Position numbers and translations under genes: made by a program. From Alphaproteobacteria bacterium HGW-Alphaproteobacteria-6 (GTDB lineage: Bacteria > Pseudomonadota > Alphaproteobacteria > Rhodobacterales > Rhodobacteraceae), in the NCBI GenBank assembly GCA_002841115.1, contig PHEC01000012.1:24048-58346 (forward strand): DNA of 34,299 bases, written 5' to 3'. Of this stretch, positions 10,957 to 32,930 are shown piece after piece. The notes under the pieces are model-generated. The model worked only from the letters and a program-made list of their open reading frames with translations. It searched no databases and was not told the origin of the DNA. Each line of letters begins with the position of its first letter. Positions within the stretch are counted from its first letter, which is position 1.

Positions 10957-12645
10957 TCAATCTTCGCCGCGGGCAAAGAGCCGGCGTGCATCCTCGGCGG
11001 TGTAGCGGCCCAGCCGCACATCCTCGGCCACCGCCTCGGGATCACGCTGGCGCGGATCACCATAGCCGCCGCCGCCCGGAGTGCGCACCCGGACCCGGTC
11101 GCCGGGGTTCAGCACGATGTCCTGCGCCTTCGACAGATGCTCGGGCACCGTCACCACCCCGGCGCGGATCACCTCGACCCGGTTGACCCCGCCGTCGCCG
11201 CCGCCCATTGCCCCCTGCGGGCCGACCCGGCCGTGATCCATCACGAAACTGGCCCGCGCGGTGCCGCGCAAAAGCTCGATCTCGTAGTCGAGGCCGAAGC
11301 CGCCGCGCTGCCGCCCGGCCCCGCCCGAGCCTTCGTGCAGTGCGTAGCGGCGATACAGCACCGGATAGGTCTGCTCCATGATCTCGACCGGCGGCGCCTT
11401 CGATATGCCGATCGTCGAACAGCCGTTCGACAGCCCGTCATGGTCGGCATTGCCGCCGTAGCCGCCGCCCGAGATCTGATACATCACATAGTCGCGGCCG
11501 CGTTCGGGATCGTGCCCGCCCAGGCCGAAATTGCCCGAGGTGCCGGCCGGCGCCGCCGTCACCCGGTCGGGCAGCGCCTGGACAAGGGCGGCAAAGACCG
11601 CCTCGGCGATGCGCTGGCTGACCTCGGCGGCGCAGCCCGAGACCGGGCGCGGATAGGCGGCGTCAAGAAAGGTGCCGGCGATCCCGCTGACACTCAGCGG
11701 CGCGAAGGCCCCGGCACTCATCGGCACGTCGGGGAAGATGTGGCGCATCGCCAGATAGACCGATGACAGCGTGGTGGCGCGGACCGAGTTCATCGGCCCG
11801 GCGCAGGGCGCCGAGGTGCCGGTGAAATCGAAGTGCAACGTATCGCCCGACCGGGTGACGGCCAGGGCGATGGTCAGCGGCTCATTCACCACCCCGTCGC
11901 TGTCGACGATGGCGGTGGCGCGGAAGGTGGCCTCTGGGATCAGGGTGATCGCGGCGCGCATCTGCCGCGCGGCAAGGTCGCGCATCTCGGCGATGGCGCC
12001 GCGCACCGTGTCGTCACCGTAGCGATCAAGGATCGCGCCCAGCCGTTCGGCGCCGACCAGAAGGGCCGCGGCCTGCGCCTTGACGTCGCCGATCCGCTGT
12101 TCGGACACCCGGATGTTGGAACAGATGATCTGCCAGATCTCGTCATTCATCACGCCCCGGCGGAACAGCTTGACCGGCGGCAGCCGCAGCCCCTCCTGCT
12201 CGGCCGAGATCGCGCTGGCGGAAAAGCCGCCGGGCACCGCGCCGCCGGTATCGGGCCAGTGGCCGGTGTTCGAGAGCCAGCAGAAGATCCGGCCGGCGCG
12301 GGAAAACGGCATCGCAAAGCGCACATCCATCAGATGGGTGCCGCCCAGATAGGGGTCGTTGACGATGTAGATGTCGCCGGGCTCGGGCGGCAGGGTGACG
12401 CCGGCGGCGATCCGCTCGATGATGTGGCGGGTGGAAAACTGCATGGTGCCGACAAAGACCGGCAGCCCGCGCGCCCCTTGCGCGATCAGCGATCCGTCGA
12501 CCGCGTCATAGATCCCGTCGGACCGGTCGTCGGCCTCGGCGATCACCGGCGAGAAGGCGGCGCGCGAGAACGACAGGTCCATCTCGTCGCAGACCTGCTG
12601 AAGCCCGGCCTGGATGACCGCAAGGGTGACCGGATCAAGGCTCAT
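10957..12645 (-). CDS. hyuB: Hydantoinase B/oxoprolinase subunit
   Basis: A 562-residue cytoplasmic HydB-type subunit, the partner of HyuA in ATP-dependent cleavage of cyclic amides (N-methylhydantoinase, 5-oxoprolinase and acetone/acetophenone carboxylase relatives). Family marks are the LDPVTLAVIQAGLQQVCDEM start and SPVIAEADDRSDGIYDA near residue 31. They continue with GDIYIVNDPYLGGTHLMDV near 90 and GGGDGGVNRVEVIR plus the RVRTPGGGGYGDP loop near the C-terminus. I used ATG 12645, which overlaps the HyuA stop as ATGA; an open frame runs further upstream to 13254 but is inside hyuA and is not coding. It is the last gene of the long catabolic operon, 123 bp before the BMP operon on the same strand. 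Confidence 0.93.
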   Translation of the reverse strand: MSLDPVTLAVIQAGLQQVCDEMDLSFSRAAFSPVIAEADDRSDGIYDAVDGSLIAQGARGLPVFVGTMQFSTRHIIERIAAGVTLPPEPGDIYIVNDPYLGGTHLMDVRFAMPFSRAGRIFCWLSNTGHWPDTGGAVPGGFSASAISAEQEGLRLPPVKLFRRGVMNDEIWQIICSNIRVSEQRIGDVKAQAAALLVGAERLGAILDRYGDDTVRGAIAEMRDLAARQMRAAITLIPEATFRATAIVDSDGVVNEPLTIALAVTRSGDTLHFDFTGTSAPCAGPMNSVRATTLSSVYLAMRHIFPDVPMSAGAFAPLSVSGIAGTFLDAAYPRPVSGCAAEVSQRIAEAVFAALVQALPDRVTAAPAGTSGNFGLGGHDPERGRDYVMYQISGGGYGGNADHDGLSNGCSTIGISKAPPVEIMEQTYPVLYRRYALHEGSGGAGRQRGGFGLDYEIELLRGTARASFVMDHGRVGPQGAMGGGDGGVNRVEVIRAGVVTVPEHLSKAQDIVLNPGDRVRVRTPGGGGYGDPRQRDPEAVAEDVRLGRYTAEDARRLFARGED

Positions 12646-14696
12646 GTCAGGGTTCCGATGCTGATGATCAGGTTGCCGTCGGCGTCGGTCACCACCCGGT
12701 CGCCGGGGCCGACGAGGGTGGTGGTATCCATCTGCTCGATGACCGCCGGGCCGACCAGTGCTGCGTCCATCGGCAGATGGTCGCGCCAGTAGACCGGGGT
12801 GTCGTGCCAGCGCCCGAACCAGACCGGGCGGGCGCCGGTCTGCGCCTCTGCCACCGTCGCCCGCCGCCCGGCCGGATCGATCAGCGCGCGCAGGTCGATA
12901 TCCGGCCGCCGCCCGATCACCGAACAGTTGAGATTGACCAGCCCGGCGCGGATCGTCGCCAGATCGACGTGGAAGCGGTCGTGATAGGCGCGCTCGAACG
13001 CCGCCTGAAGGCTGGCGCGGCTTGGCCGGCGATCGGGCAGCGCCACCCGCAGAAGATGGGTCTGGCCGAGAAACTGCATGTCGACGCTGAATTCGGCGCG
13101 GATGTCGGAAACGCTGATCCGTTCCGCCGCGATCAGCCGGCGGCCCTCGGCCTCCTGTGCCGCAAGGGTGGCATGGACCGCGTCGATGTCGGCGAGATCG
13201 AGCGGCCGGTTCAGCGTGCGCACGAAATCGTGGCGCAGGTCGGCGACCACGCAACCCAGCGCATTGGTGATGCCCGGCCGCGCCGGCACCAGGACCCGCG
13301 GGATCGCCAGTTCGCGGGCGAGATCGGCGGCATGCAAGGGCCCCGCGCCACCAAAGGCGAAAAGCGCGAAATCGCGCGGATCGGCACCAAGCGAGATCGA
13401 CACCATGCGGATCGCCCCGGCCATATGGGTATTGGCGAGCGTCAGCACCGCGGCGGCGGCGGGTTCGGCACCAAGCCCCAACGGCGCGCCGATCTGCTCG
13501 GCGAAGGCCGCGCGCACCGCCGCCCCGGCGCCGGCGAACCGCGCCGACCCGAGCCGGCCGAGAAGCAGGTTGGCATCCGAGATCGTCGGCCTTGTGCCGC
13601 CCCGCCCGTAGCAGATCGGGCCGGGATCCGACCCGGCACTTTCCGGCCCGACCCTGAGCATGCCGCCGGCATCGATCCGCGCCACCGATCCGCCGCCGGC
13701 GCCCACGGTGCGCACATCGACCATCGGCACATGGATCGGCATCGCATATTCGACCTCGATCTCGTTCGAGACCGGGGCGCGGCCGGCGCGGATCAGCGCC
13801 ACATCGGTCGAGGTGCCGCCCATGTCATAGGTGATCAGGTTTTCCTGCCCGGCGCGCCGCCCGGTATAGACCGCCGCCATCACCCCCGAGGCCGGCCCCG
13901 ACATCACCGTCTTGACCGCCTCGCGCGAAACGCTGCGGGCGCCGACCATGCCGCCATTGCCGTTCATCACCAGCAGTTCGCGCCCATAGCCCCGGTCGGC
14001 CAGTTCGTCGGCCAGCCGCGCGATATAGCGTTCCAGCACCGGCTGCACCGCGGCATTCAGCGCCGCCGTCACCCCGCGTTCATATTCGCGGCTTTCGGAC
14101 AAAAGCGCATGGCCCGTCGTCACATGCGCGTTCGGCCAGAGCGTGGCGGCAATCGCGCCGGCGCGGAGTTCATGCGCGGGGTTGGCATAGGCATGCAGGA
14201 AATGGATCACCAGCGCCTCGCAACCCTGATCGCGCAAATGCAGGACCGCCGCCTTCAGCCCGGCCTCGTCCAGAGGCGTGATCACCCGTCCCTGCGCATC
14301 CATCCGCTCGGCCACCTCAAGGCGCAGGTCGCGCGGGATCACCGGGGTGAAGCGGCCGGTCATGCCGTAGGGATGCGGCCGGGTGCGGCGGCCAAGCTCC
14401 AGCACGTCGCGGAAACCTTCGGTGGTGATCAGCCCGGTCTTCGCCAGCCGCCGTTCAAGGACCGCATTGGTGGTGGTCGTGGTGCCATGCACGATCAGGT
14501 CGATCGCCGCCAGATCGGCGCCGGCGGCCGCCAGGGCATCAAGCACGCCGAAGGCCTGGTTGGGCAGCGTCGTCGGCACCTTGGCCAGCCGCACCGCGCC
14601 GGTCGCGGCATCATAGATCACCAGATCGGTGAAGGTGCCGCCGACATCGATCCCGGCCATCAGACCGGCCATCAGCCCCGCCCCGGTTTTCGTCAT
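12642..14696 (-). CDS. hyuA: Hydantoinase A/oxoprolinase subunit
   Basis: A 684-residue ATP-binding subunit of the hydantoinase/oxoprolinase family. The actin-like ATPase signatures are present: GIDVGGTFTDLV (15-26) at the start, GTTTTTNAVLER near 71, VMSGPASGVMAA near 264, DMGGTSTDVALI (291-302) and FGGAGPLHA near 455. Such enzymes phosphorylate a ring carbonyl and then open or carboxylate the substrate. The start abuts the stop of the upstream ABC ATPase (TGAATG) with GGGGG five bases before it; ATGs at codons 9 and 13 are alternatives because family proteins often begin close to the GIDVGG motif. In this operon the likely job is ATP-driven opening of a lactam made by the upstream hydroxylase and reductase (inference). 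Confidence 0.92.
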   Translation of the reverse strand: MTKTGAGLMAGLMAGIDVGGTFTDLVIYDAATGAVRLAKVPTTLPNQAFGVLDALAAAGADLAAIDLIVHGTTTTTNAVLERRLAKTGLITTEGFRDVLELGRRTRPHPYGMTGRFTPVIPRDLRLEVAERMDAQGRVITPLDEAGLKAAVLHLRDQGCEALVIHFLHAYANPAHELRAGAIAATLWPNAHVTTGHALLSESREYERGVTAALNAAVQPVLERYIARLADELADRGYGRELLVMNGNGGMVGARSVSREAVKTVMSGPASGVMAAVYTGRRAGQENLITYDMGGTSTDVALIRAGRAPVSNEIEVEYAMPIHVPMVDVRTVGAGGGSVARIDAGGMLRVGPESAGSDPGPICYGRGGTRPTISDANLLLGRLGSARFAGAGAAVRAAFAEQIGAPLGLGAEPAAAAVLTLANTHMAGAIRMVSISLGADPRDFALFAFGGAGPLHAADLARELAIPRVLVPARPGITNALGCVVADLRHDFVRTLNRPLDLADIDAVHATLAAQEAEGRRLIAAERISVSDIRAEFSVDMQFLGQTHLLRVALPDRRPSRASLQAAFERAYHDRFHVDLATIRAGLVNLNCSVIGRRPDIDLRALIDPAGRRATVAEAQTGARPVWFGRWHDTPVYWRDHLPMDAALVGPAVIEQMDTTTLVGPGDRVVTDADGNLIISIGTLT

Positions 14697-15391
<695 letters not shown>

Positions 15392-15392
<1 letters not shown>

Positions 15393-16102
15393 CAGCCCCC
15401 CAGATAGGCGGTCTGCACCGCCCGGTTGGCGCGGATTTCCGCCGGCGTGCCGCTGGCCAGCACGGTGCCGAAATTCAGGACGGTGATCCGTTCCGCCAGA
15501 TCCATCACCACATCCATGTTGTGTTCGATCAACAGCACCGTGGCGCCGGGCACCACGGCGCGCACGATGTCCTTGAAGGCGGCGATCTCGGCCAGGGCCA
15601 GGCCTTGCGTCGGCTCGTCAAGGATCAGAAGGGTCGGGCGCAGCGCCAGCCCCATCGCCACCTCCAAGAGCCGCTGGTGGCCATAGCTGAGGGTGCCGGC
15701 CACCTGATCGGCGCGCGCCTCAAGCCCGACCCGGGCCAGCGCCGCCATCGTGTCGGCGGCGAGGTCGGCAGCGCCCCTTGACTGCACCGCCAGCGCGACA
15801 TTGTCGAAGACGCTCAGCGCACCGTAAACCTGGGTGATCTGGAACGTATAGGCGATGCCGGCGCGGACCCGTGCATGGGCCGGCATCCGGGTGATGTCGC
15901 GCCCTTTCAGGCGGATGCTGCCCGACTGCACCGGGACACGGCCCGACAGCAGGCTGACAAAGGTGGTCTTGCCGGCGCCGTTGGGGCCGATCAGGGCGTG
16001 GATCTCGCCCTCGGCAAGGTCGAAATCGACCCGGTCCACCGCCTTCAGCCCGCCGAAATGGCGGGTCAGGCCGCGCGCCTCCAGCAAGCTCACGGCAGCC
16101 AT
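15392..16102 (-). CDS. livG: Branched-chain-type ABC transporter ATPase, LivG class
   Basis: A 236-residue ATPase with Walker A GPNGAGKTT, the RVRAGIAYTFQITQVYGALSVFDN segment and Walker B LLILDEPTQGL. It lacks the long insert of E. coli LivG. The signature motif reads LSYGHQRLLEV rather than LSGGQ, a variant common in this class. The start overlaps the LivM end by 13 bp and the stop overlaps the LivF start by one base. Confidence 0.92.
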
Positions 16103-17031
16103 CTCAGCCCCCTTGCCCTGAGCGTGCCGAGAATGCCGCGCGGCGCGAAGAGGACAAGGGCGACAAGCGCCGCGCCGGTGACGAACTGATGCGCGTCGGT
16201 CAGCGAACTAGCGTAGTCGATCAGGTAGAACATCACCAGCGCCCCGAGAAGCGGGCCAAGAACGGTGCCGGCGCCGCCCAGAAGGACGTAGAGCAGCGGC
16301 AGGATCGAATACTGCACCGAAGCCAGACTGGCACCGACATAGCCGAACATCAGCCCATAGGCGGCACCGGACAGCCCGGCATAAAGCCCCGAGATCGCCA
16401 GCGCGCCAAGCTTCACCGTAAAGGGGTTGTAGCCAAGCATCCGGCTGCGCTCCTCGTTCTCGCGCATCGCCACCATGACCCGGCCGAAGGGCGAGCGGAC
16501 CAGCGCGAGGTTGCCCAGAAGGGCAAGGGCGAAAAGGCCGAGGGCCACGAGGTAGCGGGTATTGTCGTCGGACAGATCCAGCCCGCCCAGCATCCGTGCC
16601 GCCCGTGGGATCACGATCCCCTCGTCGCCGCGGGTCCAGGCGCCGAAATAGAGGATGGTCAGATAGCCCGCCTGCGCGAACATCAGGGTCACGATCATGA
16701 AGGCGACGCCAGCAGTCCTGAGCGCCAGAAGCCCGACCGCCACCGCCACCGCGCCGCCGGCAAGCACCCCGGCGATCATCGCCACCGGGGCGCCGGCGCC
16801 GGCATGGTAGACCAGAAGCCCGGCCGCGTAGAGCCCGGCGGCGAAGAACAGCGCGTGGCCGAGGCTTAAAAGCCCGGTATAGCCGAAGGCGATGTTGTAG
16901 CCCATCGCGTAGACCGCCAGCACCATGATCCGGGCCAGGTTGGTGTGGTGGTAGGGCGGCGCCAGGACATGCAGCGCGAGAAGCGCCGCCAGCACCCCGA
17001 GGTGAAGGAAAAGCCCGCGGTCGGCCCTCAT
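16090..17031 (-). CDS. livM: Branched-chain-type ABC transporter permease, LivM class
   Basis: A 313-residue inner-membrane permease starting at ATG 17031, which overlaps the LivH stop as ATGA; a longer open frame to 17736 runs through livH and is not used. The LivM signature is clear: NIAFGYTGLLSLGHALFF in the first third, the SPFGRVMVAMRENEERSRMLGYN coupling loop near residue 195, and GGAGTVLGPLLGALV near 255. About eight to nine membrane segments are visible. Confidence 0.93.
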   Translation of the reverse strand: MRADRGLFLHLGVLAALLALHVLAPPYHHTNLARIMVLAVYAMGYNIAFGYTGLLSLGHALFFAAGLYAAGLLVYHAGAGAPVAMIAGVLAGGAVAVAVGLLALRTAGVAFMIVTLMFAQAGYLTILYFGAWTRGDEGIVIPRAARMLGGLDLSDDNTRYLVALGLFALALLGNLALVRSPFGRVMVAMRENEERSRMLGYNPFTVKLGALAISGLYAGLSGAAYGLMFGYVGASLASVQYSILPLLYVLLGGAGTVLGPLLGALVMFYLIDYASSLTDAHQFVTGAALVALVLFAPRGILGTLRARGLRWLP

Positions 17032-17909
17032 GCGGCGCGCTTTCCGAAAAGGCCCTGGGGGCGGAAGACGAGGACGAGGGCGACAACCAGCGTGGCGATG
17101 ATCTTGGCCAGCGTCGGCGCGAAGAAGGTCGAGATGACGCCATCCGACAGCCCGATCAGCAGGGCGGCGACCAGCGTGCCGCGCAAGGACCCAAGCCCGC
17201 CGATGATCACCACGATGAACGACAGAAGCAAGGGATCGCCGCCCATCAGGTAGTGGGCCTGGCTGATCGGCACGATCAGCACCGCGGCAATCGCGGCAAG
17301 CCCGGCGCCCATCGCGAAGACCCCGGCATAGACCCGGTCGACGTTGATCCCGAAGGCCCGCGCGGTGTCGCGGTCTTCCTGCGTCGCGCGCATCAAAAGC
17401 CCGGCGCGGCTGTGCTTCAGGATCAGCCAGACGCCCAAGAGCACCAGCGCCGCCGCGACGACGACGGCAAGCTTGTAGCCCGAGTAGCCGAACCACGGCA
17501 GTTGCAGCCGGAAGCTGAAAGGCGCCTCGACCGGGCGGGCGTCGGGGCCAAAGAGGCTGAGCGCCGCCTGTTCGAGGATGTAGAGAAGCCCGATGGTGGC
17601 GACGATCGTCGCCTCGGGCTCGTAGTTCAGCCGCTTCAGCACAGCCATGTCGGCGATGGCCGCGATGGCGCCGACGACCAGCGGGCAGAAGACCAGCGCC
17701 GCGGCAAAGGCCAGCGCCGGTGGCCCGGGCAGCCACTCGGCCACGAACCAGGCCAGCACCGCGCCAAGCATGAAGAATGCCCCATGCGCGACGTTCACCA
17801 CCCGCATGATGCCGAAGACAAGCGAAAGCCCCGAGGCGGTCAGCGCCAGCACCGCCGCGGTCACCAGCCCTTCCATCAGGGCCAGAAGCAGGAAAGGTCC
17901 GAAATCCAC
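17028..17909 (-). CDS. livH: Branched-chain-type ABC transporter permease, LivH class
   Basis: A 293-residue polytopic permease. It starts with GTG 17909, with GGAG nine bases upstream. Family features are the ALTASGLSLVFGIMRVVNVAHG helix near residue 22, the RAGLLMRATQEDRDTARAFGIN coupling loop near 165, and a GGLGSLRGTLVAALLIG stretch near 238. It is separated from the binding-protein gene by a stem-loop in a 48-bp gap and overlaps livM by four bases. Confidence 0.93.
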   Translation of the reverse strand: MDFGPFLLLALMEGLVTAAVLALTASGLSLVFGIMRVVNVAHGAFFMLGAVLAWFVAEWLPGPPALAFAAALVFCPLVVGAIAAIADMAVLKRLNYEPEATIVATIGLLYILEQAALSLFGPDARPVEAPFSFRLQLPWFGYSGYKLAVVVAAALVLLGVWLILKHSRAGLLMRATQEDRDTARAFGINVDRVYAGVFAMGAGLAAIAAVLIVPISQAHYLMGGDPLLLSFIVVIIGGLGSLRGTLVAALLIGLSDGVISTFFAPTLAKIIATLVVALVLVFRPQGLFGKRAA

Positions 17910-17922
17910 GTCAGGGGGCTCC

Positions 17923-17944
17923 GGGGCGGGTCTGGGCCCGCCCC
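17923..17944 (-). promoter_or_regulatory. Intercistronic stem-loop between binding protein and permease genes
   Basis: A perfect 8-bp GC stem (GGGGCGGG at 17923-17930 with CCCGCCCC at 17937-17944) with a 6-nt loop lies 13 bp after the binding-protein stop. No T-run follows on the coding strand. Stems in this position commonly protect the upstream mRNA or attenuate transcription, giving more binding protein than permease. Confidence 0.5.
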
Positions 17945-17957
17945 TTGCTGTGTCGGA

Positions 17958-19250: not shown

Positions 19251-19359
19251 GGTCATTCTCCGCTGCTGTGATGGCGTGGTCCCGAGGCACCGGGCCGCGC
19301 TCTTGTGAAATCCTCTTGCCGTCACGGAACACGGGAAAGGCCACCATTGCAAGGCTTTC

Positions 19360-20769
19360 TCATCCCGCCGCCGGGCTCGACAGAAGCCAGAGGCCGAAGA
19401 CCGTGTAGCCGACCATCAGCACCGTCATCGGCAGATGCGTGCCGGGCCTTCGCCCGCCGGCAAGCCGCGCCGACAGCATGAGCCCGAGCAGCACCGCCAG
19501 GAGATGCGCGCCCAGGATCACCGCGAATTGCGCGGTCCAGACCGCCTGCACCCCGGCCCGCGTCGCAAGAAACCCGAACGAGACCCAATGCTCGGGCAGG
19601 CCGAAAAGCGACCAGCCTCGCGCGAAGGGGTCGCCCAGCGCGACCAGCGCATATTGGCCATTGGTCAGAAGCGCCACCAGGTAATGGGCGACATGATAGC
19701 CCGCCGCGATCGGCAGGAAGGACAGCATCAGGGGCCCCGCCGCCGCAGCGACAGCCACCCCGCGCGGCAGGCCGAGACGGATCGCGCCGAGGATCAGCCC
19801 CGAGACCAGCGCCCAGGCCGCCAGCAGCCCGGCGCTGTTGACCGCCACCACCGCCGAGCGGCCGGGAAACTCCAGGGGGTTGATGCCGATCCGCGCCAGC
19901 CACCAGAAGGTCTCGCTCAGCCCGTCGAAGCTGACCGAGGCAAGGACCAGCGTGACGAAGGCCATGGCCGAGGCGCCGAGCGGCGCCATCGCCGCCACCT
20001 GCGCGCCGGGCCATCCGGCCATGATCCGCAGCCGGCCGCCCTGCGGTTCCGCCCAGACCGGCGCGATCCGCGCGATCATGCCGAAATAGACGGTCAGGAA
20101 CTCTCCCCGGGCCAGCCAGCCCTCGCCCTCGGCCACCGCCAGCACGAGGATCAGCAGCGCATAGCCCGCCACCACCCGGGCCAGAACCGCCGGATCGGCC
20201 GGCGACAGCGAGACGATCTCGAACCAGGCAAAACCGAGGTATCCCGCCACCGCGGGCCAGTGGCCAAGCCGGGAAAGGCCGATGCTGCCCTGCCAGCCGA
20301 GCAGCCGGCGAAGGGCGCGGACCGGGCCGGTCCAGGGCTCGATATCGCGCCAGAGATTGCCGAAAAGCACGCAAGCCAGGGTCAGCCCGACCCAGAGCAG
20401 GGTCCAGACCGTCAGCGGCAGCAGGTTCTCCAAGGGGTCGCGGGTGCCGTAAAGACCGATGGCGACCAGCCCGGCCCAGACCAGCGCGGCGATGAGGCTT
20501 GCAAGGGCGCGCGGCACGATCACCGACCGGCTGAACAAGGGCCTCGCGGCAAAGCCGGGCGGGTGCCGCGCCATCAGCCCCGCTGCGGCGGTCAGCGCCA
20601 CCACCACGCCCGCACCGACCATGTACCAGCCGGTCGGCAAGGTCAGGATCACCATCCGGTCCGAGGCATGGGCCAGCGCCGGCCCCGGCGCCAGCACCAG
20701 CACCAGCAGCGCCGGCAAGGCGCGCCCGGGCAGACTGGGGCCAATCAGCCGAAGCCGCGGGCGGTTCAC
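19360..20769 (-). CDS. Polytopic membrane protein of unknown function
   Basis: A 469-residue protein with a signal-like N-terminus (hydrophobic 18-33, ALA-HASD cleavage possible after 33) and about ten or more further hydrophobic segments. The motif FGNLWRDIEPW (136-146) and the AHA-like start recall a family of integral membrane proteins, some labelled fenitrothion hydrolase in databases; that label is from memory and the activity is not supported here. A buried GYHVAHYL motif near residue 358 gives two membrane histidines. It starts with GTG 20769 overlapping the DUF1185 stop as GTGA, so it is translationally coupled to the catabolic genes and probably serves them, for example as a transporter or electron-transfer partner (speculation). 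Confidence 0.7.
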   Translation of the reverse strand: MNRPRLRLIGPSLPGRALPALLVLVLAPGPALAHASDRMVILTLPTGWYMVGAGVVVALTAAAGLMARHPPGFAARPLFSRSVIVPRALASLIAALVWAGLVAIGLYGTRDPLENLLPLTVWTLLWVGLTLACVLFGNLWRDIEPWTGPVRALRRLLGWQGSIGLSRLGHWPAVAGYLGFAWFEIVSLSPADPAVLARVVAGYALLILVLAVAEGEGWLARGEFLTVYFGMIARIAPVWAEPQGGRLRIMAGWPGAQVAAMAPLGASAMAFVTLVLASVSFDGLSETFWWLARIGINPLEFPGRSAVVAVNSAGLLAAWALVSGLILGAIRLGLPRGVAVAAAAGPLMLSFLPIAAGYHVAHYLVALLTNGQYALVALGDPFARGWSLFGLPEHWVSFGFLATRAGVQAVWTAQFAVILGAHLLAVLLGLMLSARLAGGRRPGTHLPMTVLMVGYTVFGLWLLSSPAAG

Positions 20770-21347
20770 CGCAGGCCATCCTCGCCCCTGACCTGCGACA
20801 CCTCCAGCCCGCCCATCCGGCTGTGGACCCGGCCGCCCTTCGCCATCGCCAGCACGAAGACGATCTCTCCCTCGCGCGGCCCGTCGGGCAGCGCCACGGT
20901 GATCGCGTCGAAATGGCTGCGCACATAGGCGGCGTTGATATGGCCGAGCGGCACGTCAAGACCCGCGCCTACACCGGCGACCTTCATCGCCGAGGGCACG
21001 ATGGCGCGGCTTTCGCCGAGGTGCTCGCGCATCGCATAGCCGCCCGGCACATGCCAGAGCGCGCCATGCTCGATCTCGCCAGCGGCACCGACGATGGCGC
21101 CCTTGCCATAGCCGTCGATCCCCTCGCGCCCGCCAAGAGCGGCGATCAGCCGCGCCGACATCATCAGGCCGAGGGGTTTCAAATCCTCCATCGCCGGTTG
21201 CAGTTCGGCCGCGAACCGTCCGGCGAAGGGGTTCGACACCAGCGCCAGGATCGCCGCGCGCTGACGCGGGCGGGCCGCTGGCGGGCCGCCGTCATGGTGG
21301 ATCTCTTCGCTGAGGATGGTCAGCTTGCGCAGTCTGAAATCAGCCAA
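20766..21347 (-). CDS. Amino acid synthesis family protein (DUF1185)
   Basis: A 193-residue soluble protein of the PF06684/DUF1185 family, named amino acid synthesis from context; no reaction is firmly known to me. Matching segments are KLTILSEEIHHDGG near the start, AILALVSNPFAGRF, LGGREGIDGYGKGAIVGAAGEIEHGALWH in the middle and FDAITVALPDGPR near the end. I propose a TTG start at 21347: GGAG lies seven bases upstream, it overlaps the UPF0280 stop by only eight bases, and the protein then begins a few residues before the conserved core. The alternative GTG/ATG-like start at 21386 would add 13 residues unlike the family. It lies between the ApbE-like gene and the membrane protein. Confidence 0.78.
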   Translation of the reverse strand: MADFRLRKLTILSEEIHHDGGPPAARPRQRAAILALVSNPFAGRFAAELQPAMEDLKPLGLMMSARLIAALGGREGIDGYGKGAIVGAAGEIEHGALWHVPGGYAMREHLGESRAIVPSAMKVAGVGAGLDVPLGHINAAYVRSHFDAITVALPDGPREGEIVFVLAMAKGGRVHSRMGGLEVSQVRGEDGLR

Positions 21348-22200
21348 GGCAGGGCTCCGTCTGAGGGTGGGAAAGGCTGCGGGCATGGTCGCCGATCGTG
21401 CGCACCTCGCCCTGAAGGAACAGCGCGGCGGCGGCGATCAGCCCGCGGTCACGCGCACGACCGGCCGCCGCCAGACCGCGGTCCAGCGCGCGGGCCCGGG
21501 CCTGGGGCGAAAGCGGCGCCACCGCCACCGTCACGGCGCGGCGGCCAAGATCGCTGTCGGCCCTGACCGCGCGGGCCGGGCGCCTGAGGATGGCCGGATC
21601 GCCCGGCAGGTCGACGGCATTGGCGATCATCGTCGCCGCCGCATCGGCCGCCGCCGCATCGCGCGCCAGAACCGTCACCGCATCGGCAATCCCCAAGGAC
21701 TGGCTCCGCCCGCGCCAGCCCGAGGTGGCGATGCCGCGCACCGGATCACCATGCGTCACCACCACCCGGCCCGGCCCCGCCCCGGTCAGCGCGATCGCCG
21801 CGGTCAGGCGCTCGCCCGGTTCCAGGTGCAGCGCGATGTCGCCGCCGTTGTTGACATAGGCGCGGCCGATCCCGCCACCGGCGACCAGGGCCGCCAGCAC
21901 CGCATCGGCCACCGCGCCGGCCACCGCCGCCATCGGGGTGATGAAGGCGGGGCGGAACGGCGCCACCGCGCGCCCCATCGCCCGCGCCACCGGCCCGGTC
22001 AGCGCCGAACCGGCAGCGCTGCGCAGGGCCGGCAGTTCGGCCACCAGTTCCTCCAGCAGCCCGTCGAAGCGCGCCGTGGCCAGGGCGTAGCCTTCGCGCA
22101 CCGCCTCTGGCGCGCCGAACGCCTCGATCACCAGATCGATCGGCCCGTGGTTCAGGTGCAGCCGCCCGCCCGGCAGCATCATCGCCTGCGCGCCGCTCAT
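21340..22200 (-). CDS. UPF0280 family protein, ApbE-like
   Basis: A 286-residue protein of the UPF0280 family (COG2122), distantly related to the FAD:protein FMN transferase ApbE. ApbE-like features are an FITPMAAVAGAVAD helix (about 86-99) and NNGGDIAL (117-124), which mirrors the NVGGDI motif of ApbE. It has no signal peptide, so it should act in the cytoplasm. ATG 22200 overlaps the stop of the 6-hydroxynicotinate-reductase-like gene as ATGA. Because the E. barkeri 6-hydroxynicotinate reductase carries a covalently bound flavin, I infer that this protein could attach that flavin to its neighbour. The family assignment is sound; the role is a hypothesis. Confidence 0.82.
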   Translation of the reverse strand: MSGAQAMMLPGGRLHLNHGPIDLVIEAFGAPEAVREGYALATARFDGLLEELVAELPALRSAAGSALTGPVARAMGRAVAPFRPAFITPMAAVAGAVADAVLAALVAGGGIGRAYVNNGGDIALHLEPGERLTAAIALTGAGPGRVVVTHGDPVRGIATSGWRGRSQSLGIADAVTVLARDAAAADAAATMIANAVDLPGDPAILRRPARAVRADSDLGRRAVTVAVAPLSPQARARALDRGLAAAGRARDRGLIAAAALFLQGEVRTIGDHARSLSHPQTEPCLG

Positions 22201-23714
22201 CCGCCGGCCCCCGGCCAGCGCCTTACCTGCGCGGCGGTGACATATTCGCCCCCCTCGGCGATGACCTGATCCAGCCGCCGGATCGCCGCCTGATGCCCGC
22301 CAAGGGCGAGGTATTCGGCGTGCGGCAGGGTGAACTCCAGCGGCGCCACCAGCGCCGGGGTCGGCACCGAACCGAAGGCGCCGGGCGGCAGACGGGTGAC
22401 ATCGACCATGAAGGTGATGCCGCCACCCGGCCAGATGAAGCACGGTGCCCCGCCCGCGGTCAGCCGCGTCACCCCGGACTGCACCGACCGGGTCAGCCGC
22501 ACCGGGTTCTTCGTCACCCCCGCCCGCAAGCTTCCCCCCGCCCCGCCCATGAAAAGAACCGTGCAAAGCGAAGGCTCGCAGTTCTCGTCGATCAGCCGCA
22601 CCGTCGGGACCAGATCGGCCGGCAGGTCACGCCGCTCGGGCACCAGCGCCTCGTCAAGGACGTAATAGGCGTATTCCTCGCCGGTGGTCGAGACCATCAG
22701 CAGGCGCAGACCCGGCCGCGCGCCCTTCTTCGGGTTCCACGGCCCGAGGATATCCAAGGGATCGCTCAGCCGGGTGCCGCCCCAGCCGGGCCCCGGTTCC
22801 GAGACCCGGAAATAGCGCCCCGGCGTCGAGCGCTGGCCCCTGATCCTGATCCCGCTGTCCTCCCAGCCCAGCACCTTGCCGGCCTGATGTTCCGACACCA
22901 CCCCGGTGATATGGTCATCGACCACCACCACCTCGTCGACCAGGCCGCGCCACTGGTCGGCGAACATGCCGATCGTCGCCGAGCCGCAGCCGACCCGCAT
23001 CCGCCGCTCGGGCGTGCCGTCGACCACCGGCGCGCAACCGGCCTGCACCGTTACCGCGGATCCGCCGTCGATCGCCAGCGCCACCGCCTCGGCGTTGCAC
23101 AGCGCCAGCAGGGCGGCACAGGTCGCCCGGCCTTCGGACTTCTCGCCGCCGGTCAGGTGATGCACCCCGCCGAGCGACAGCATCTGGCTGCCGTATTCGG
23201 CGGTGCTGACATGGCCGATCGCCTCGCCCCCGGCGCGCACCACGGCGCCTTCGGGGCCAAGGTAGCGGTCGGTGTCGATCTTCACCTTGACCCCGCAGTA
23301 GGAAAAGATTGCCTCGGTCACCACGGTCACCATCTCGGCGCCCTCGACCTCGCTTGCGACGATGAAGGGCGCGGGCTTGTAGTCGGGATAGGTGGTGCCG
23401 GCGCCGATCCCGGTGACTACGGCGTCGGCGGGCATTGCCGCGCCGTCGCCGCCGTCGCCGCCACCGTCGCGCAGCGCGAAGGGCACGATGCGCCCGCCGG
23501 CCGCGACCTGGCGCGACAGGATGGTCACCGGGTCCGAGCGCAGGATGCGGCCGCCCTCGTTGGCGTAGCGGTCGCAGGCGCCGGTCTGGCCCGGCGCGAT
23601 GTAGCACATCACCGGACAGGCATCGCAGCGGATCTTGTCGCCCATCCGCGCCGCGCGCGCCGCCTCGCGGGCGCCGCCGTGATCGGCGGGCGGGGGCAGG
23701 GGATCATCAGTCAT
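22197..23714 (-). CDS. 6-hydroxynicotinate-reductase-like Fe-S flavoprotein
   Basis: A 505-residue cytoplasmic protein resembling 6-hydroxynicotinate reductase (Hnr), which in Eubacterium barkeri reduces 6-hydroxynicotinate to 1,4,5,6-tetrahydro-6-oxonicotinate and holds Fe-S clusters and covalent flavin. The N-terminus has a cluster motif CDACPVMC followed by GACDRY (C30, C33, C37, C47); further cysteines occur at 140, 200, 206, 227 and 243. The middle contains VKIDTDRYLGPEGAVVR, and HHLTGGEKSEGRAT near 185. The segment VGCGSATIG (241-249) loosely resembles ApbE flavinylation sites. A Gly/Asp-rich linker (84-91) is variable. The gene overlaps the Mo subunit gene and the UPF0280 gene by four bases each. 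The exact substrate is unknown; the family match is from memory of the sequence pattern. Confidence 0.75.
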   Translation of the reverse strand: MTDDPLPPPADHGGAREAARAARMGDKIRCDACPVMCYIAPGQTGACDRYANEGGRILRSDPVTILSRQVAAGGRIVPFALRDGGGDGGDGAAMPADAVVTGIGAGTTYPDYKPAPFIVASEVEGAEMVTVVTEAIFSYCGVKVKIDTDRYLGPEGAVVRAGGEAIGHVSTAEYGSQMLSLGGVHHLTGGEKSEGRATCAALLALCNAEAVALAIDGGSAVTVQAGCAPVVDGTPERRMRVGCGSATIGMFADQWRGLVDEVVVVDDHITGVVSEHQAGKVLGWEDSGIRIRGQRSTPGRYFRVSEPGPGWGGTRLSDPLDILGPWNPKKGARPGLRLLMVSTTGEEYAYYVLDEALVPERRDLPADLVPTVRLIDENCEPSLCTVLFMGGAGGSLRAGVTKNPVRLTRSVQSGVTRLTAGGAPCFIWPGGGITFMVDVTRLPPGAFGSVPTPALVAPLEFTLPHAEYLALGGHQAAIRRLDQVIAEGGEYVTAAQVRRWPGAGG

Positions 23715-26488
23715 CGCCCGCCGCCCCCGCCCCCGGCCTCTGCCGCCTCTGCCGCAAGGATCGCCGCGCGCAGCCGGTGCGGCAGGACCGGCACCCGGTC
23801 GATCACCACGCCGGTGGCATCGCCGATCGCATTCAGGATCGCCGGCGCGGTCGGGATCAGCACATGCTCGCCCAGGCCGCGCGCGCCGCCGCCCGGCCCC
23901 TCGGGGTCGGGCACCTCGATCAGGATGCTGTCGATCGGCGGCACGTCGCCGGTGGTCGGGATCAGGTAGTCATGCAGGTTCTCGGTCCGCCCCGGCACAT
24001 AATCCTCCATCAGCGCCAGCCCGATGCCCTGCGCGATGCCGCCTTCGATCTGGCCCTCGGCCAGCATCGGGTTGATCACCCGGCCAAGGTCATGCGCTGC
24101 GGTGATCCGCAACAGCCGCACCGTGCCCAGCGCCCGGTCAACCTCCAGTTCCGCCAGTTGCGCGCCATAGCCGTAGACCGCATAGGGAACCCCCTGCCCG
24201 TCGGCATCAAGGGCCGAGGTCGGCGGGTCATAGCTTTCCTCGGCAACCAGGACATGGCCATCGGCATCGGCCGGCAGCCGCGAAAGCTCGATCCGCCTTT
24301 GCCCGCCGGCGCCCGGTTCGGCGACCCGGATCGCCCCGGCCTCCGACGTCAGCACCGCCCCATCGCCAAGATTGGCATGGCTCAGGATCATCGCCCTCAG
24401 CGCGCGGGCCGCGGTCTCGGCGGCGCGTCCGGTGACGAAGGTCTGGCGCGAGGCCGAGGTCTTGCCGGCATCGGGCGTCAGCGCGGTATCCGGGCCGATC
24501 AGGTCGAAGGCATCGACCGGCAGGCCCAGCGCATCGGCGGCGATCTGGGTGATCACGGTGTCGGAGCCCTGGCCGATCTCGGTCGCGCCCTGATAGAGCA
24601 CCACCCTGCCGGTCCGGTTCAGCGCGATGCGGATGGTCGAGGGGTTGGGCAGCGAAGTATTGCCGCAGCCATACCAGCAGGACGCCACGCCGACCCCGCG
24701 CCTTGTGATGCCGCCCTGCGCGTTATGCGCCGCCGCGGCGGCAAGCGCCCGGCTCCAGGGCGCGCGCAGCGCCTCGAGGCAGGCGCGGATGCCGGTGCTG
24801 CGCAGCACCTGCCCGGTCGCCGTCGCATCGCCATCCGAAAGCGCGTTCAGGATGCGGAATTCCAGCCGGTCGATGCCGGCCGCCCGCGCCAGCCGGTCGT
24901 AAAGCATCTCCTGCATGATCGCCGCCTGCGGCACGCCGAAACCGCGAAAGGCGCCCGAGACCGGCCCGTTGGTATGAACCGCCCGGGCGCGGGCGCGGAC
25001 ATGCGGGGTGCGGTAGGGGCCGGTGGCATGGACCGGGACGCGGTTGGCGACGGTCGGGCCCCAGCTGGCGTAGGCGCCGGTGTCGAACAGCCCGTCGAAG
25101 TCGAAGCCCACCATCCGGCCCGCCGCATCGCAGCCGGCCCGCGCGACAATCCGCGCCGGATGCCTTTTGGTGGTCGAGGCCATCGATTCGGCGCGGGAAT
25201 AGACCATCCGCGCCGGCCGCCCGGTCTTCAGCACGGCGAGCCCGAGCAGGGGTTGCAGCGACAGGTCAAGCTTCGATCCGAAACCGCCGCCGACCGCCGA
25301 GGGGATGATCCGCAGCCGCGCCACCGGCAGGCCGAGGATCGCCGCGGTCTCGTCACGGTCCATCACCGGCGCCTGGGTGCAGGCGCGGATCACCAGCACA
25401 TCGCCCTCAAGCCAGGCGGCGCCGGCCTCGGGCTCGATATAGGCATGTTCGACAAAGGCGGTCTCGACCCGGCCCGCGACCGCGAAGGCCGCCCCGGCCA
25501 GCGCCGCCCCGACATCGCCGCGCACCACCCGCCCCGCGGTCAGAAGGTTCGCCGGGCGGTGCGGGTGAAGCTGCGCCGCGCCCGCCGCCTCGGCCAGGAC
25601 GGGATCGAGAAGCGGCTCCCCGGCGGCCCAGGTCACCGGGAAATCCGCCAGATCGGGCTCGGCCCCGTCATCCTCGAAGGCGACAAGCGCCACCGCCTCG
25701 CCGCGAAAGCGCACCTGGCCCTCGGCCAGCACCGGCTGGTCGGCAAAAGGCGCGATGGTGCCGAAGATGTTGCGCCCGGGAATGTCGGCGGCGGTGAAGA
25801 CGGCGGCGACGGCAGGGGCCCGGGCGGCGGCCCAGCCGGCGATATCGCCGAGGCCGAAGCGCGCCCGGTGATGTGGCGAGCGCACCGCCTTCAGCAAAAG
25901 CCCGCCCGGTTGCCACAGATCGGCGCCGAAGACGGCGCGGCCGTCGACCTTGGCCGCGCCGTCAAGCCGCGCCATCCGCGCGCCGATCGCCTGGCCGCTG
26001 GCCGGCGAGGCTGCCGCGGGCGCGTCGCGCCAGGCATCGCAGACCGCGGCGATGATCCGGGCATAGCCGGTGCAGCGGCACAGCACCCCGCCCAGCGCCG
26101 CCTCGGCCTGATCGCGGGACGGGCGCGGCACCTCGGCCAGCAGCGCCGCCGCCGCCATCAGCATGCCGGGCGTGCAGATCCCGCATTGCGCAGCACCATG
26201 GCGCAGGAAGGCGGCGCGCAGCCGCGTCACCGCGGCATTGCCGGCCCCTTCCACCGTCTCCACCGCGCGTCCCGCGACCTGCGCCACCGGGGTCAGGCAG
26301 GCGCAGACCGCGCGCCCGTCCACCAGCACGGTGCAGGCGCCGCAATCGCCGGCATCGCAGCCGATCTTGGTGCCGGTCAGGCCCAGATCCTCGCGCAGCG
26401 CCTGCGACAGGCGGCGCGCGGGATCGCCGCGCAGGGTCGCCGGCGCACCGTTCAGGGTAAGGCCGAGGCCGGGATCGGGACGGTTCAT
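23711..26488 (-). CDS. Xanthine-dehydrogenase-family hydroxylase, fused 2Fe-2S and molybdopterin subunit
   Basis: A 925-residue fusion. The first 150 residues are the two-cluster ferredoxin part (C44, C49, C52, C64 and C102, C105, C137, C139). The rest is the molybdopterin domain, with GGGFGSK (400-406), AFRGFGVPQ (513-521), QGATEIGQG (633-641) and the catalytic Glu874 in ARGLGEH. The enzyme hydroxylates a carbon next to ring nitrogen using water, passing electrons via Fe-S to the separate FAD subunit. This Fe-S/Mo fusion plus separate FAD protein matches the E. coli XdhD/YgfM layout. By alignment with bovine XDH, Glu802 is Leu407 while Arg880 (R483) and Phe914 (F517) are kept, which argues against xanthine and fits a substrate with a carboxylate. 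No Tat signal is present, so it is cytoplasmic. It needs molybdenum cofactor; no XdhC-type maturase lies in the window. Confidence 0.92.
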   Translation of the reverse strand: MNRPDPGLGLTLNGAPATLRGDPARRLSQALREDLGLTGTKIGCDAGDCGACTVLVDGRAVCACLTPVAQVAGRAVETVEGAGNAAVTRLRAAFLRHGAAQCGICTPGMLMAAAALLAEVPRPSRDQAEAALGGVLCRCTGYARIIAAVCDAWRDAPAAASPASGQAIGARMARLDGAAKVDGRAVFGADLWQPGGLLLKAVRSPHHRARFGLGDIAGWAAARAPAVAAVFTAADIPGRNIFGTIAPFADQPVLAEGQVRFRGEAVALVAFEDDGAEPDLADFPVTWAAGEPLLDPVLAEAAGAAQLHPHRPANLLTAGRVVRGDVGAALAGAAFAVAGRVETAFVEHAYIEPEAGAAWLEGDVLVIRACTQAPVMDRDETAAILGLPVARLRIIPSAVGGGFGSKLDLSLQPLLGLAVLKTGRPARMVYSRAESMASTTKRHPARIVARAGCDAAGRMVGFDFDGLFDTGAYASWGPTVANRVPVHATGPYRTPHVRARARAVHTNGPVSGAFRGFGVPQAAIMQEMLYDRLARAAGIDRLEFRILNALSDGDATATGQVLRSTGIRACLEALRAPWSRALAAAAAHNAQGGITRRGVGVASCWYGCGNTSLPNPSTIRIALNRTGRVVLYQGATEIGQGSDTVITQIAADALGLPVDAFDLIGPDTALTPDAGKTSASRQTFVTGRAAETAARALRAMILSHANLGDGAVLTSEAGAIRVAEPGAGGQRRIELSRLPADADGHVLVAEESYDPPTSALDADGQGVPYAVYGYGAQLAELEVDRALGTVRLLRITAAHDLGRVINPMLAEGQIEGGIAQGIGLALMEDYVPGRTENLHDYLIPTTGDVPPIDSILIEVPDPEGPGGGARGLGEHVLIPTAPAILNAIGDATGVVIDRVPVLPHRLRAAILAAEAAEAGGGGGGR

Positions 26489-27393
26489 CGCGCCGCCGCT
26501 CCATCGCTCGCCAGCGCCGCCACCGCGCGGCGCAAAAGCTCTGCCGCCGCCGCGGCACGGTAGCCGGCCGAGGCGCGGATGTCGTCAAGCGGCGACAGCG
26601 CCGCGGCCACCTCGGCGTCGTGGATCAGCCCCGCCGCGCGGTCCGGGGCGGCACCAAAGAGCGCCGCCTCGACCGCCGGCAGGCGCCGGGTGGTGGCGCT
26701 GCAGGCACCGACGGCAAGGGCGGCGGTGGCGATCCGGCCGCCCTCGACCACCAGCCTGACCGCCACCATCGCGATCGAGATCACCAGATAGCGCCGCGCC
26801 CCGAGCTTCACGAAGCGTGACCGACCCGACAGTGCCGCCACGGGGATGAAGATGCCGGTCATCACCTCGTCATCCCGGCGCAGGGTCAGGCGCGGACCAG
26901 TCAGGAAATCGGCCAAAGGCACCCGGCGGAGGCCGCGGGCCGAGGCCAGATCGATTTCGGCATCGACGGTCAGCAGCGGCGGCACCCCGTCGGCGGCGGG
27001 CGAGGCATTGCACAGGTTGCCGCCGAGGGTGCCGGCATTCTGGATCTGCCGGCCGCCGACCTCGGCCGCGGCCTGCCTCAGCGCGGCGAGCGCCGGCGGC
27101 AGGTCGGCCGCCGCGATATCGGCCCAGCGGGTCAGCGCACCGACCCTGAGGCCGCCCGCGACCGGGCCGATCCCGGCCAGCCCGTCGACCGCGGTCAGAT
27201 CGAGGATCGGCCCCGCCGGTGCCTGCCGCCCGGTTCCGGGGTAGACATCGGTGCCGCCGGCCAGGATCAGCCGCGGGCCACGGGCCAGACAGTCGAGAGC
27301 CGCGCCAAGATCGCGCGGCCGCAGGTAGGCACCGCGATCAGGGTCCGGTTCCCGATCACCGGGACGGGCATCGGGGCGGGCGGGTGCGGTCAT
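26485..27393 (-). CDS. FAD-binding subunit of xanthine-dehydrogenase-family hydroxylase
   Basis: A 302-residue CO-dehydrogenase-type flavoprotein that takes electrons from the Fe-S domains of the partner subunit. Both FAD-binding motifs are visible: AGGTDVYP (45-52) and GGNLCNASPAAD (124-135). The C-terminal CO_deh_flav_C domain follows from about 190. I chose ATG 27393. The upstream ATG at 27444 would read through a C9G11 tract to give a PPPGGG leader, and it overlaps the proposed MarR operator. It is the first gene of the long operon, divergent from marR, and its stop overlaps the next start as ATGA. Confidence 0.9.
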   Translation of the reverse strand: MTAPARPDARPGDREPDPDRGAYLRPRDLGAALDCLARGPRLILAGGTDVYPGTGRQAPAGPILDLTAVDGLAGIGPVAGGLRVGALTRWADIAAADLPPALAALRQAAAEVGGRQIQNAGTLGGNLCNASPAADGVPPLLTVDAEIDLASARGLRRVPLADFLTGPRLTLRRDDEVMTGIFIPVAALSGRSRFVKLGARRYLVISIAMVAVRLVVEGGRIATAALAVGACSATTRRLPAVEAALFGAAPDRAAGLIHDAEVAAALSPLDDIRASAGYRAAAAAELLRRAVAALASDGAAAR

Positions 27394-27410
27394 CGTCAGC
27401 CTGCCTTCGG

Positions 27411-27430
27411 CCCCCCCCCCCGGGGGGGGG
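27411..27430. repeat. C11G9 homopolymer palindrome
   Basis: Eleven C (27411-27421) are followed directly by nine G (27422-27430), forming a near-perfect palindrome 18 bp upstream of the FAD-subunit ATG. It lies in the predicted 5' UTR and could form a hairpin, vary in length by slippage, or be a sequencing weak spot. Confidence 0.85.
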
Positions 27431-27443
27431 CGCGCGAAATTCA

Positions 27444-27455
27444 TATGTATACAAA
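27444..27455. promoter_or_regulatory. Candidate MarR operator
   Basis: TATGTATACAAA holds a perfect TGTATACA core (27446-27453) with matching outer bases except at positions 2 and 11. It is an AT-rich palindrome typical of MarR-family sites, between the divergent catabolic operon (51 bp to its ATG) and marR (80 bp to its GTG). Regulation by the adjacent MarR protein is inferred from position. Confidence 0.55.
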
Positions 27456-28543: not shown

Positions 28544-28723
28544 GAGGGATGCGGCGAAGGCAGAACGGACATCGTCGGGCATCGGTTGCCACACCGTCCC
28601 GTCGCGCAGGCCCTGCCGGCGGGCGATGGCATCGTCCCCCATCCGGTGCGCCAGCGTTGCCGCAACGTCCCAGCCGGACGGGTCAAGAGGTGCACCATCG
28701 GCGGGGTGCAGGGCGTCGTTCAC
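28544..28723 (-). pseudogene. N-terminal fragment of a PLP-dependent amino acid decarboxylase
   Basis: GTG 28723 overlaps the stop of the alpha/beta hydrolase gene as GTGA and has GGAG ten bases upstream. The first 60 codons match the beginning of group II aromatic amino acid decarboxylases: DPSGWDVAATLAHRMGDD followed by RDGTVWQPMPDDVRSAF. The PLP-binding domain (about 400 residues) is missing; the frame continues into unrelated sequence to a stop at 28436. The four-gene operon upstream therefore once ended with a decarboxylase, now destroyed by the rearrangement. Confidence 0.65.
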
Positions 28724-30371: not shown

Positions 30372-30389
30372 GGCGTTTCCTCCAGCCGG

Positions 30390-32000: not shown

Positions 32001-32034
32001 GCATATTCTCCCGTTGTGTCGCGCGTCCTGGGGT

Positions 32035-32832: not shown

Positions 32833-32841
32833 CGGTAGCCC

Positions 32842-32855: not shown

Positions 32856-32930
32856 TTGTCGGGACGGAACGCATTGAGAGACGGCGCCCGCTTTACTGGC
32901 GTCGTTTCGCAGGCATCCAGTCTTCGTTGC

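Follow-up and report, generated by a model that had tools for sequence, protein, structure and literature searches.

A predicted nicotinate degradation operon in which HyuAB may stand in for enamidase

The 34,299-nucleotide stretch of contig PHEC01000012.1 from Alphaproteobacteria bacterium HGW-Alphaproteobacteria-6 (here termed the window) contains a 13-gene operon encoding a molybdenum hydroxylase, a homologue of 6-hydroxynicotinate reductase (Hnr), a Liv-type ATP-binding cassette (ABC) importer and the two proteins HyuA and HyuB. It is quite probable that this operon serves to import nicotinate and degrade it reductively, with HyuAB using ATP to open 1,4,5,6-tetrahydro-6-oxonicotinate (THON), a six-membered lactam, where relatives use an enamidase that needs no ATP. 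We infer every substrate and reaction in this scheme from gene content, protein families, motifs, the either/or distribution of HyuAB and enamidase, and a palindrome found in part of the promoters. As read here, the system is a known pathway with a new ring-opening variant, and it yields a sharp comparative prediction of function for a widespread HyuAB subfamily, namely an ATP-paid route where the known enzyme spends none.

Distribution of HyuAB and enamidase

An amidohydrolase is common in the Hnr gene clusters that lack HyuAB, and its closest solved relative is the enamidase 2VUN (360 bits over 383 residues, nearly the whole chain). Three sets of loci were compared: 40 sampled Hnr loci, the 80 loci most similar to the window's Hnr, and 13 plasmid loci. 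With cut-offs of at least 55% for HyuAB and at least 60% for enamidase, the two were found in 15 and 10 of the sampled loci, 30 and 0 of the closest and 8 and 5 of the plasmid loci, respectively, and no locus in these sets contained both. The zero enamidase count in the second set is biased, as its members were chosen for closeness to the window Hnr.

The same pattern was seen at the level of genomes. Hnr is present in 44 of 289 genomes of the window's class and absent from 245, a match of 39% over 55 residues in G182 having been left out of the count (G and L numbers designate genomes and loci). Each of the 44 carries either a member of the HyuB subfamily (at least 64%; 27 genomes) or an enamidase orthologue (at least 64%; 17 genomes), with none having both and none having neither. 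At these thresholds HyuB was detected in none of the Hnr-negative genomes and enamidase in one. The 27/17/0/0 split is unchanged at HyuB cut-offs of 55, 60 and 63%, which add 7, 3 and 1 Hnr-negative genomes. No more than 4 HyuB and 6 enamidase candidates were scored per genome in this set, so a second copy could be missed; G104 has HyuB together with a distant enamidase-like protein (41%). The second set, drawn from the order and phylum, comprised 80 of 99 new Hnr genomes (19 order-level genomes lie outside it) and was scored at strict cut-offs with up to 17 HyuB and 23 enamidase candidates per genome. Here 31 genomes had HyuAB only, 44 enamidase only, 2 both and 3 neither, giving exactly one ring opener in 75 of 80; G461, counted as neither, carries a divergent enamidase (48–51% identity) inside its cluster. 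The original prediction held that enamidase is missing from the operon and that HyuAB would be its ATP-dependent replacement. No enamidase was found in the operon, the best match in the window's own genome being 31% over 83 residues, and the near-perfect either/or pattern supports the replacement; for comparative data, the case that HyuAB would replace enamidase is strong.

Unlinked genes in relatives had been named as grounds for abandoning the proposal, and no such refutation emerged. Among the 27 HyuB genomes, HyuB is within 25 kb of Hnr in 16, 52–73 kb away in 3 and 1.4 Mb away in 1; the other 7 have the two genes on different contigs. HyuA (62%) is near Hnr in G066 (L059, L266) and G093 (L043, L267), where HyuB lies 1.4 Mb off or on another contig. 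If either subunit is counted, 18 of the 27 genomes have one near Hnr.

Two trees of Hnr were examined, both lacking G028 (whose Hnr is in two pieces), G231 (a partial hit) and G064 from the set of 44 genomes. Over the tree of 41 Hnr sequences the ring-opener label changes 6 times, and 4 of these changes are forced by well-supported branches. The tree of 121 sequences comes from a quick search with support from the Shimodaira-Hasegawa-like approximate likelihood ratio test (SH-aLRT) only, and rows G326, G356 and G857 were kept in it despite a failed frame-motif check. Here HyuB changes 10 times and enamidase 14 times, and among 7 independent pairs differing in HyuB (starred branches) a mean of 6.9 were opposite in enamidase and 0 were the same (sign test, median p 0.0156, range 0.0156–0.0312). 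Within the window's own genus code, G384 and G391 have enamidase but lack HyuB, and both kinds are also found under each of the genus codes g246 and g229. Shared ancestry alone therefore fails to explain the pattern.

A second, distant HyuAB pair (38–44%) with an isochorismatase-family hydrolase lies upstream of the enamidase-type Hnr cluster of Sulfitobacter sp. S190 (L155:1-3319).

Gene content and conservation of the operon

The genes and the operator-like site are as follows, in descending order of position (FAD, flavin adenine dinucleotide).

27536..27952, + strand: MarR-family regulator gene, divergent from the operon (68% identity to the MarR beside the Fuscovulum cluster; Pfam MarR_2/MarR)
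27444..27455, no strand: operator-like palindrome TATGTATACAAA, between the MarR and FAD-subunit genes (1 mismatch to TTTGYATACRAA)
26485..27444, - strand: FAD subunit of the molybdenum hydroxylase (PF00941, PF03450; alternative start 27393)
23711..26488, - strand: fused [2Fe-2S] and molybdopterin (Mo) hydroxylase subunit, proposed nicotinate 6-hydroxylase (Fer2, Fer2_2, MoCoBD_1/2)
22197..23714, - strand: Hnr, 6-hydroxynicotinate reductase homologue (relatives on plasmid records; conserved N-terminal cysteines)
21340..22200, - strand: UPF0280 protein with ApbE-like flavin-transferase fold (NF003322, 362 bits, cut-off 290; model and Foldseek)
20766..21386, - strand: DUF1185/AA_synth protein, with the ring-opened product as its proposed substrate (PF06684, 217 bits; PDB 3BYQ, 2QTP)
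19360..20769, - strand: hydrophobic (membrane) protein, no Pfam match (kept in place in close relatives)
17958..19256, - strand: periplasmic substrate-binding protein (SBP) of the Liv-type importer (PF13458; refined start)
17028..17909, - strand: Liv-type permease 1 (PF02653)
16090..17031, - strand: Liv-type permease 2 (PF02653; refined start)
15392..16102, - strand: ABC ATPase 1 (PF00005, PF12399)
14697..15392, - strand: ABC ATPase 2 (PF00005)
12642..14696, - strand: HyuA, ATP-binding subunit of the proposed THON lactamase (PF01968, PF05378; ATP motifs)
10957..12645, - strand: HyuB, metal-site subunit of the proposed THON lactamase (PF02538, 515 bits; metal ligands)

Matches to Pfam and NCBIfam, and the same product order in the annotated relative Fuscovulum ytuae, bear out the predicted arrangement of 13 genes on one strand (minus). 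Every listed part is present: a two-gene hydroxylase, Hnr, an ApbE-like protein, DUF1185, a membrane protein, a complete Liv-type importer and HyuAB. The gene list was incomplete in that the divergent MarR gene had been overlooked. Eight junctions overlap, by 4, 4, 4, 4, 4, 13, 1 and 4 bp (ORF coordinates, refined starts), as foreseen for most of them. The DUF1185 gene overlaps the UPF0280 gene by 47 bp if its ATG start is used, and the remaining junctions are one abutting pair and gaps on either side of the binding-protein gene. The open reading frames of HyuB (765 aa) and of a permease (548 aa) are over-extended, with likely starts at 12645 and 17031. Hnr, like the hydrophobic protein, has no Pfam match. 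In close relatives the latter is found together with the Liv-type importer, beside Hnr.

Exact gene order was checked in 28 loci (L071–L097 and the Fuscovulum locus L151). All 13 genes occur in the same order on one strand in 12 of these, including loci of Fertoeibacter, Tabrizicola, Frigidibacter and Fuscovulum, so the search for the gene set that had been proposed as a check recovers the complete order in relatives; several of the other 16 loci terminate within the cluster. UPF0280 accompanies Hnr in 40/40 sampled, 77/80 closest and 13/13 plasmid loci, and the Mo subunit (at least 50% identity) in 36/40, 73/80 and 7/13. The clustering is thus not due to chance, given the frequencies in the sampled loci, and hydroxylase, Hnr and UPF0280 form a conserved core. 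DUF1185 was found in 24/40, 71/80 and 13/13 loci of the three sets, MarR in 22/40, 52/80 and 12/13, and a ferredoxin-NADP reductase gene (fpr) in 0/40, 16/80 and 8/13; in the window's genome a ferredoxin-NADP reductase gene (64% identity) is located elsewhere.

The Hnr homologue expected of the reductive (THON) nicotinate pathway is present, as the only match in the source genome. It shares 57–79% identity with proteins from 26 plasmid records, whose hosts include Sulfitobacter, Fuscovulum, Sagittula, Neorhizobium and Methylobacterium. Many of these proteins are annotated as 6-hydroxynicotinate reductase, and their location on plasmids suggests that the pathway moves horizontally. The Mo subunit matches the nicotinate dehydrogenase of Eubacterium barkeri (PDB 3HRD), with higher scores for the aldehyde oxidoreductase 1SIJ and others. 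In five loci (L150, L153, L154, L158, L162) the FAD/Mo pair is replaced by a NicAB-type nicotinate dehydrogenase, a name that rests on the annotation of the plasmids concerned, and no locus combines NicB (at least 45%) with the Mo subunit (at least 50%). Cytochrome c domains are present in the one NicB checked, that of L158. The NicAB-type hydroxylase is found alongside HyuAB (L153, L158, L162) and alongside enamidase (L154), so both ring openers would serve the same front half. Hydroxylase and Hnr had been read as the front of a nicotinate-type pathway acting on an unknown N-heterocycle. The conserved core and the NicAB stand-ins support the former and make the label "unknown" unnecessary, nicotinate being the most likely substrate from these comparisons.

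Some Hnr clusters contain a Rieske oxygenase gene (L159:18058-19125, L152, L155, L157, L032, L053, L058, L060, L061, L063, L068, L069), and in L159 the C-terminal domain of the protein resembles that of vanillate O-demethylase. The oxygenase could act as an N-demethylase through which trigonelline enters nicotinate breakdown.

Protein features and regulation

The motifs DxGGTxTD and GxxPGP are conserved in 53/53 HyuA orthologues. The ATP motifs of the window HyuA are at residues 17, 291 (a second DxGGT) and 355; as DxGGTxTD includes DxGGT, the shorter pattern was tested apart only in the window, the motif definitions being those in the available text of PMC8453981. All 35 aligned HyuB orthologues, window included, have the metal ligands D40, H104, D107 and H129. 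CapAB of Pseudomonas jessenii (PDB 6YRA) is likewise a two-subunit ATP-dependent lactamase with the same ATP motifs and four metal ligands, and the accessible portion of PMC8453981 reports that its ATP-motif and metal-site residues were shown to be necessary by mutation. HyuAB scores 489 and 309 bits against the caprolactamase equivalogs NF050156 and NF050157, below the cut-off of 1000. HyuA scores 489 bits with the CapA model, 432 with its best PDB match, the N-methylhydantoinase 7HK5 (a single fused chain of 1288 residues), and 301 with ApcC. The best PDB match of HyuB is caprolactamase 6YRA (6YRA_B, 265 bits, versus 118 bits for acetophenone carboxylase 5L9W_A). The acetophenone carboxylase models give 116–301 bits, below cut-offs of 1250–1500.

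At the HyuB positions matching the CapB pocket, E37, S343, S410, T411 and S415 are the same in 35/35 orthologues, and E37 aligns with a glutamate of N-methylhydantoinase. These residues are polar, whereas the CapB pocket, as described in the part of PMC8453981 available, is hydrophobic with a vicinal disulfide. A polar invariant pocket would fit a carboxylated substrate, although it is not specific. According to the available sections of PMC11033972, activation of lactams with ATP by caprolactamase and oxoprolinase opens the ring, and OplAB of Pseudomonas putida prefers the six-membered delta-valerolactam over caprolactam. OplAB thus carries out an ATP-dependent opening of a six-membered lactam of the kind proposed for the window HyuAB, but was studied there as a valerolactam biocatalyst and not within a pyridine pathway.

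Hnr has no solved homologue by sequence comparison with PDB (best E-value 0.53), and its model, which is weak (predicted local distance difference test, pLDDT, 68.8), has no Foldseek match below E 0.001; the fold may be new. No covalent flavin site was assigned, since GCGSAT only weakly resembles an ApbE target and its T is variable. The UPF0280 model (pLDDT 91.7) shows the ApbE-like fold that had been predicted, with ApbE/FmnB structures below E 0.001 at template modelling (TM) scores of ~0.3–0.5; the best Foldseek hit is the UPF0280/DUF375 structure 2O34 (TM 0.60). Its invariant segments are NNGGD, ATSG and AD-AAT. The E. barkeri Hnr is said to carry covalently bound flavin, and for this reason, together with the fold, UPF0280 is a candidate Hnr flavinyl-transferase.

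The solved relatives of DUF1185 (PDB 3BYQ, 2QTP) are of unknown function. Genes of a branched-chain amino-acid-type transporter have been noted beside the DUF1185 member SPO0826 (PMC2954203, in part), and the accessible text of PMC7913881 reports that the homologue TgnF stimulates TgnE-dependent oxidation of succinic semialdehyde. By analogy with TgnF, the formyl acid is proposed as the compound on which DUF1185 works. A succinate--glutarate CoA-transferase homologue (527.6 of 750 bits, below the curated cut-off) adjoins enamidase in two genomes (G318, G445) and the MarR gene in two others (G406, G414), which fits the glutarate route that PMC3511419, in its available part, cites for Azorhizobium. 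In G347 a glutarate CoA-transferase gene lies 3 kb from HyuB, but its neighbours are a KDO-transferase homologue and mutY, and it was not accepted as a pathway gene.

A palindrome close to TTTGTATACAAA (1 mismatch) is located at 27444 between the window MarR and FAD-subunit genes, and on the plus strand, the strand scanned, it is the sole TTTGYATACRAA site in the window at up to 2 mismatches. One strand of 93 loci (the 80 closest and 13 plasmid loci; 1.81 Mb) was scanned for TTTGYATACRAA at up to 1 mismatch, and 77 sites were observed compared with 5–8 in five first-order Markov simulations. Of the 77, 57 are near starts of the cluster genes chosen. Loci with a site near the start number 22/68 for the FAD subunit, 8/91 for Hnr, 14/38 for HyuA, 3/5 for enamidase, 6/38 for SBP, 20/24 for Fpr, 1/4 for NicA, 0/7 for SBP2 and 0/4 for Rieske, sites between HyuA and a divergent Fpr being counted for both genes. 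The motif was derived from the same loci, many of them close kin, and these counts therefore describe and do not prove.

Proposed pathway and its alternatives

In the proposed scheme, the Liv-type transporter would import nicotinate and the Mo/FeS/FAD hydroxylase would convert it to 6-hydroxynicotinate, which Hnr, as a flavin/iron-sulfur enzyme supplied by reduced ferredoxin, would reduce to THON. HyuA would spend ATP on activating the THON lactam in its lactim form, to be cleaved to 2-(aminomethylene)glutarate at the HyuB metal site. Loss of ammonia would give 2-formylglutarate and subsequently glutarate. UPF0280 probably supplies Hnr with its flavin, the formyl acid is the probable substrate of DUF1185, and MarR would serve as the switch. 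A fuller version, in which HyuAB has been exchanged with enamidase ~10 times, UPF0280 is the dedicated Hnr flavinyl-transferase, DUF1185 decarboxylates or tautomerises 2-formylglutarate, these three families complete the aerobic route from nicotinate to glutarate and MarR, reading a TTTGYATACRAA-like site, controls all of it, is tentative and, as a whole, rather doubtful. If it were true, DUF1185 would do the same for formyl dicarboxylates in other heterocycle pathways, for example as the TgnF homologue in trigonelline degradation. With these assignments, hundreds of Hnr clusters (at least 588 confirmed relatives) receive an annotation that can be tested, and two orphan families, UPF0280 and DUF1185, are given proposed roles in the turnover of vitamin B3 by bacteria of the sea, soil and root nodules.

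Nicotinate fermentation in E. barkeri reportedly also begins with a molybdenum hydroxylase followed by Hnr. Its hydroxylase is said to have four subunits (3HRD) and its enamidase (2VUN) to be bifunctional, with an anaerobic lower pathway, whereas the window operon has a fused FeS/Mo subunit and HyuAB. The consulted portion of PMC9304392 likewise gives a bifunctional enamidase for E. barkeri. The original prediction knew of no described pathway with this combination of genes. The front half is in print: in the available text of PMC3511419, Azorhizobium, Bradyrhizobium, Rhodopseudomonas and strain SG-6C are described as having an Hnr cluster and the THON route, and the cluster also encodes a putative transporter for nicotinate and two proteins that are given no function. 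That text assigns genes for the first three steps to the Azorhizobium caulinodans/Bradyrhizobiaceae cluster, and in it HyuAB is unmentioned and the word "hydantoinase" absent. The other part of the claim stands, in that no description of HyuAB in nicotinate catabolism was found in the literature searched, outside of which lies most subscription work, including Alhapel 2006 and Kitts 1992.

The either/or pattern might instead reflect a change of substrate and not of enzyme, if the compound broken down by HyuAB clusters were another pyridine or N-methylpyridine than that of enamidase clusters, with the hydroxylase and Hnr acting on this analogue and HyuAB opening the lactam formed from it. The moderate similarity of the window hydroxylase to 3HRD would suit this, as would the different transporters (SBP versus SBP2) and the Rieske demethylase-like gene of some clusters. 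However, a single Hnr gene was found in every one of the 44 Hnr genomes (in two pieces in G028), the Hnr tree mixes both kinds and a single genus may hold both, NicAB-type hydroxylases are found alongside either opener, and the same transporter type accompanies HyuAB (L153) and enamidase (L160, L163). A change of substrate is considered unlikely. It is more improbable still that HyuAB is an unrelated hydantoinase or 5-oxoprolinase in a shared nitrogen-scavenging operon: the family does include hydantoinases and oxoprolinases, and the best PDB matches are 6YRA for HyuB and 7HK5 for HyuA, but complementarity to enamidase in 44/44 and 75/80 genomes would not be expected of such an enzyme, nor would the lack of HyuB (at least 64%) in every one of the 245 genomes of the class sample that have no Hnr. 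An acetophenone/acetone-type carboxylase acting on a ring-opened or reduced intermediate is the least probable of all. Some relatives are annotated as acetophenone carboxylase subunits and HyuA does match ApcC, but both subunits score higher with lactamases (HyuA with CapA and 7HK5, HyuB with 6YRA_B as against 5L9W_A), and complementarity with enamidase points to hydrolysis.

Reductive nicotinate degradation with HyuAB opening THON thus remains the preferred reading, and several observations weigh against it. Since enamidase opens THON without ATP, the expenditure of ATP calls for an explanation. The source genome is a 3.77 Mb draft of 87% completeness (G000), and the absence of enamidase from it is therefore not certain. 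Both ring-opener genes are present in G682 and G746, and neither, at the cut-offs used, in G406 and G414. HyuB is more than 25 kb from Hnr or on another contig in 11/27 genomes, and the 41-Hnr tree gives 4 independent pairs, all opposite, which are too few for significance (p 0.125). By PDB comparison the window hydroxylase is not clearly closest to nicotinate dehydrogenase, and many of the closest relatives have no TTTGYATACRAA site near MarR/FAD even at two mismatches. The MarR-adjacent gene of G406 and G414 (L252, L254) was considered as a third ring-opening enzyme and rejected, being the CoA-transferase homologue described above, and both genomes therefore stay without a known ring opener.

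Downstream of HyuB on the same strand (10866–4993) is a separate-looking Bmp-type importer with a cytosine-deaminase-like amidohydrolase. The importer genes of this region predict a binding protein, a fused ATPase and two permeases, and their matches to putative B6 transporter models are below the cut-offs of those models. The importer was discounted as part of the system, as it is not beside HyuB in Fuscovulum; in five near relatives (L256–L259, L263) no match to the importer or amidohydrolase was found behind HyuB, except for two ATPase matches of 32–36% in L259. The amidohydrolase (4993–6282) scores 716 bits with the cytosine deaminase PRK07572, above the cut-off of 438. It was rejected as the missing enamidase on account of this subfamily, and an enamidase query finds no match to it. 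Upstream of the operon, genes for an alpha/beta hydrolase, two S-adenosylmethionine (SAM) methyltransferases and a glucose-methanol-choline (GMC; choline-dehydrogenase-like) oxidoreductase lie in a row on the minus strand (28720–32874).

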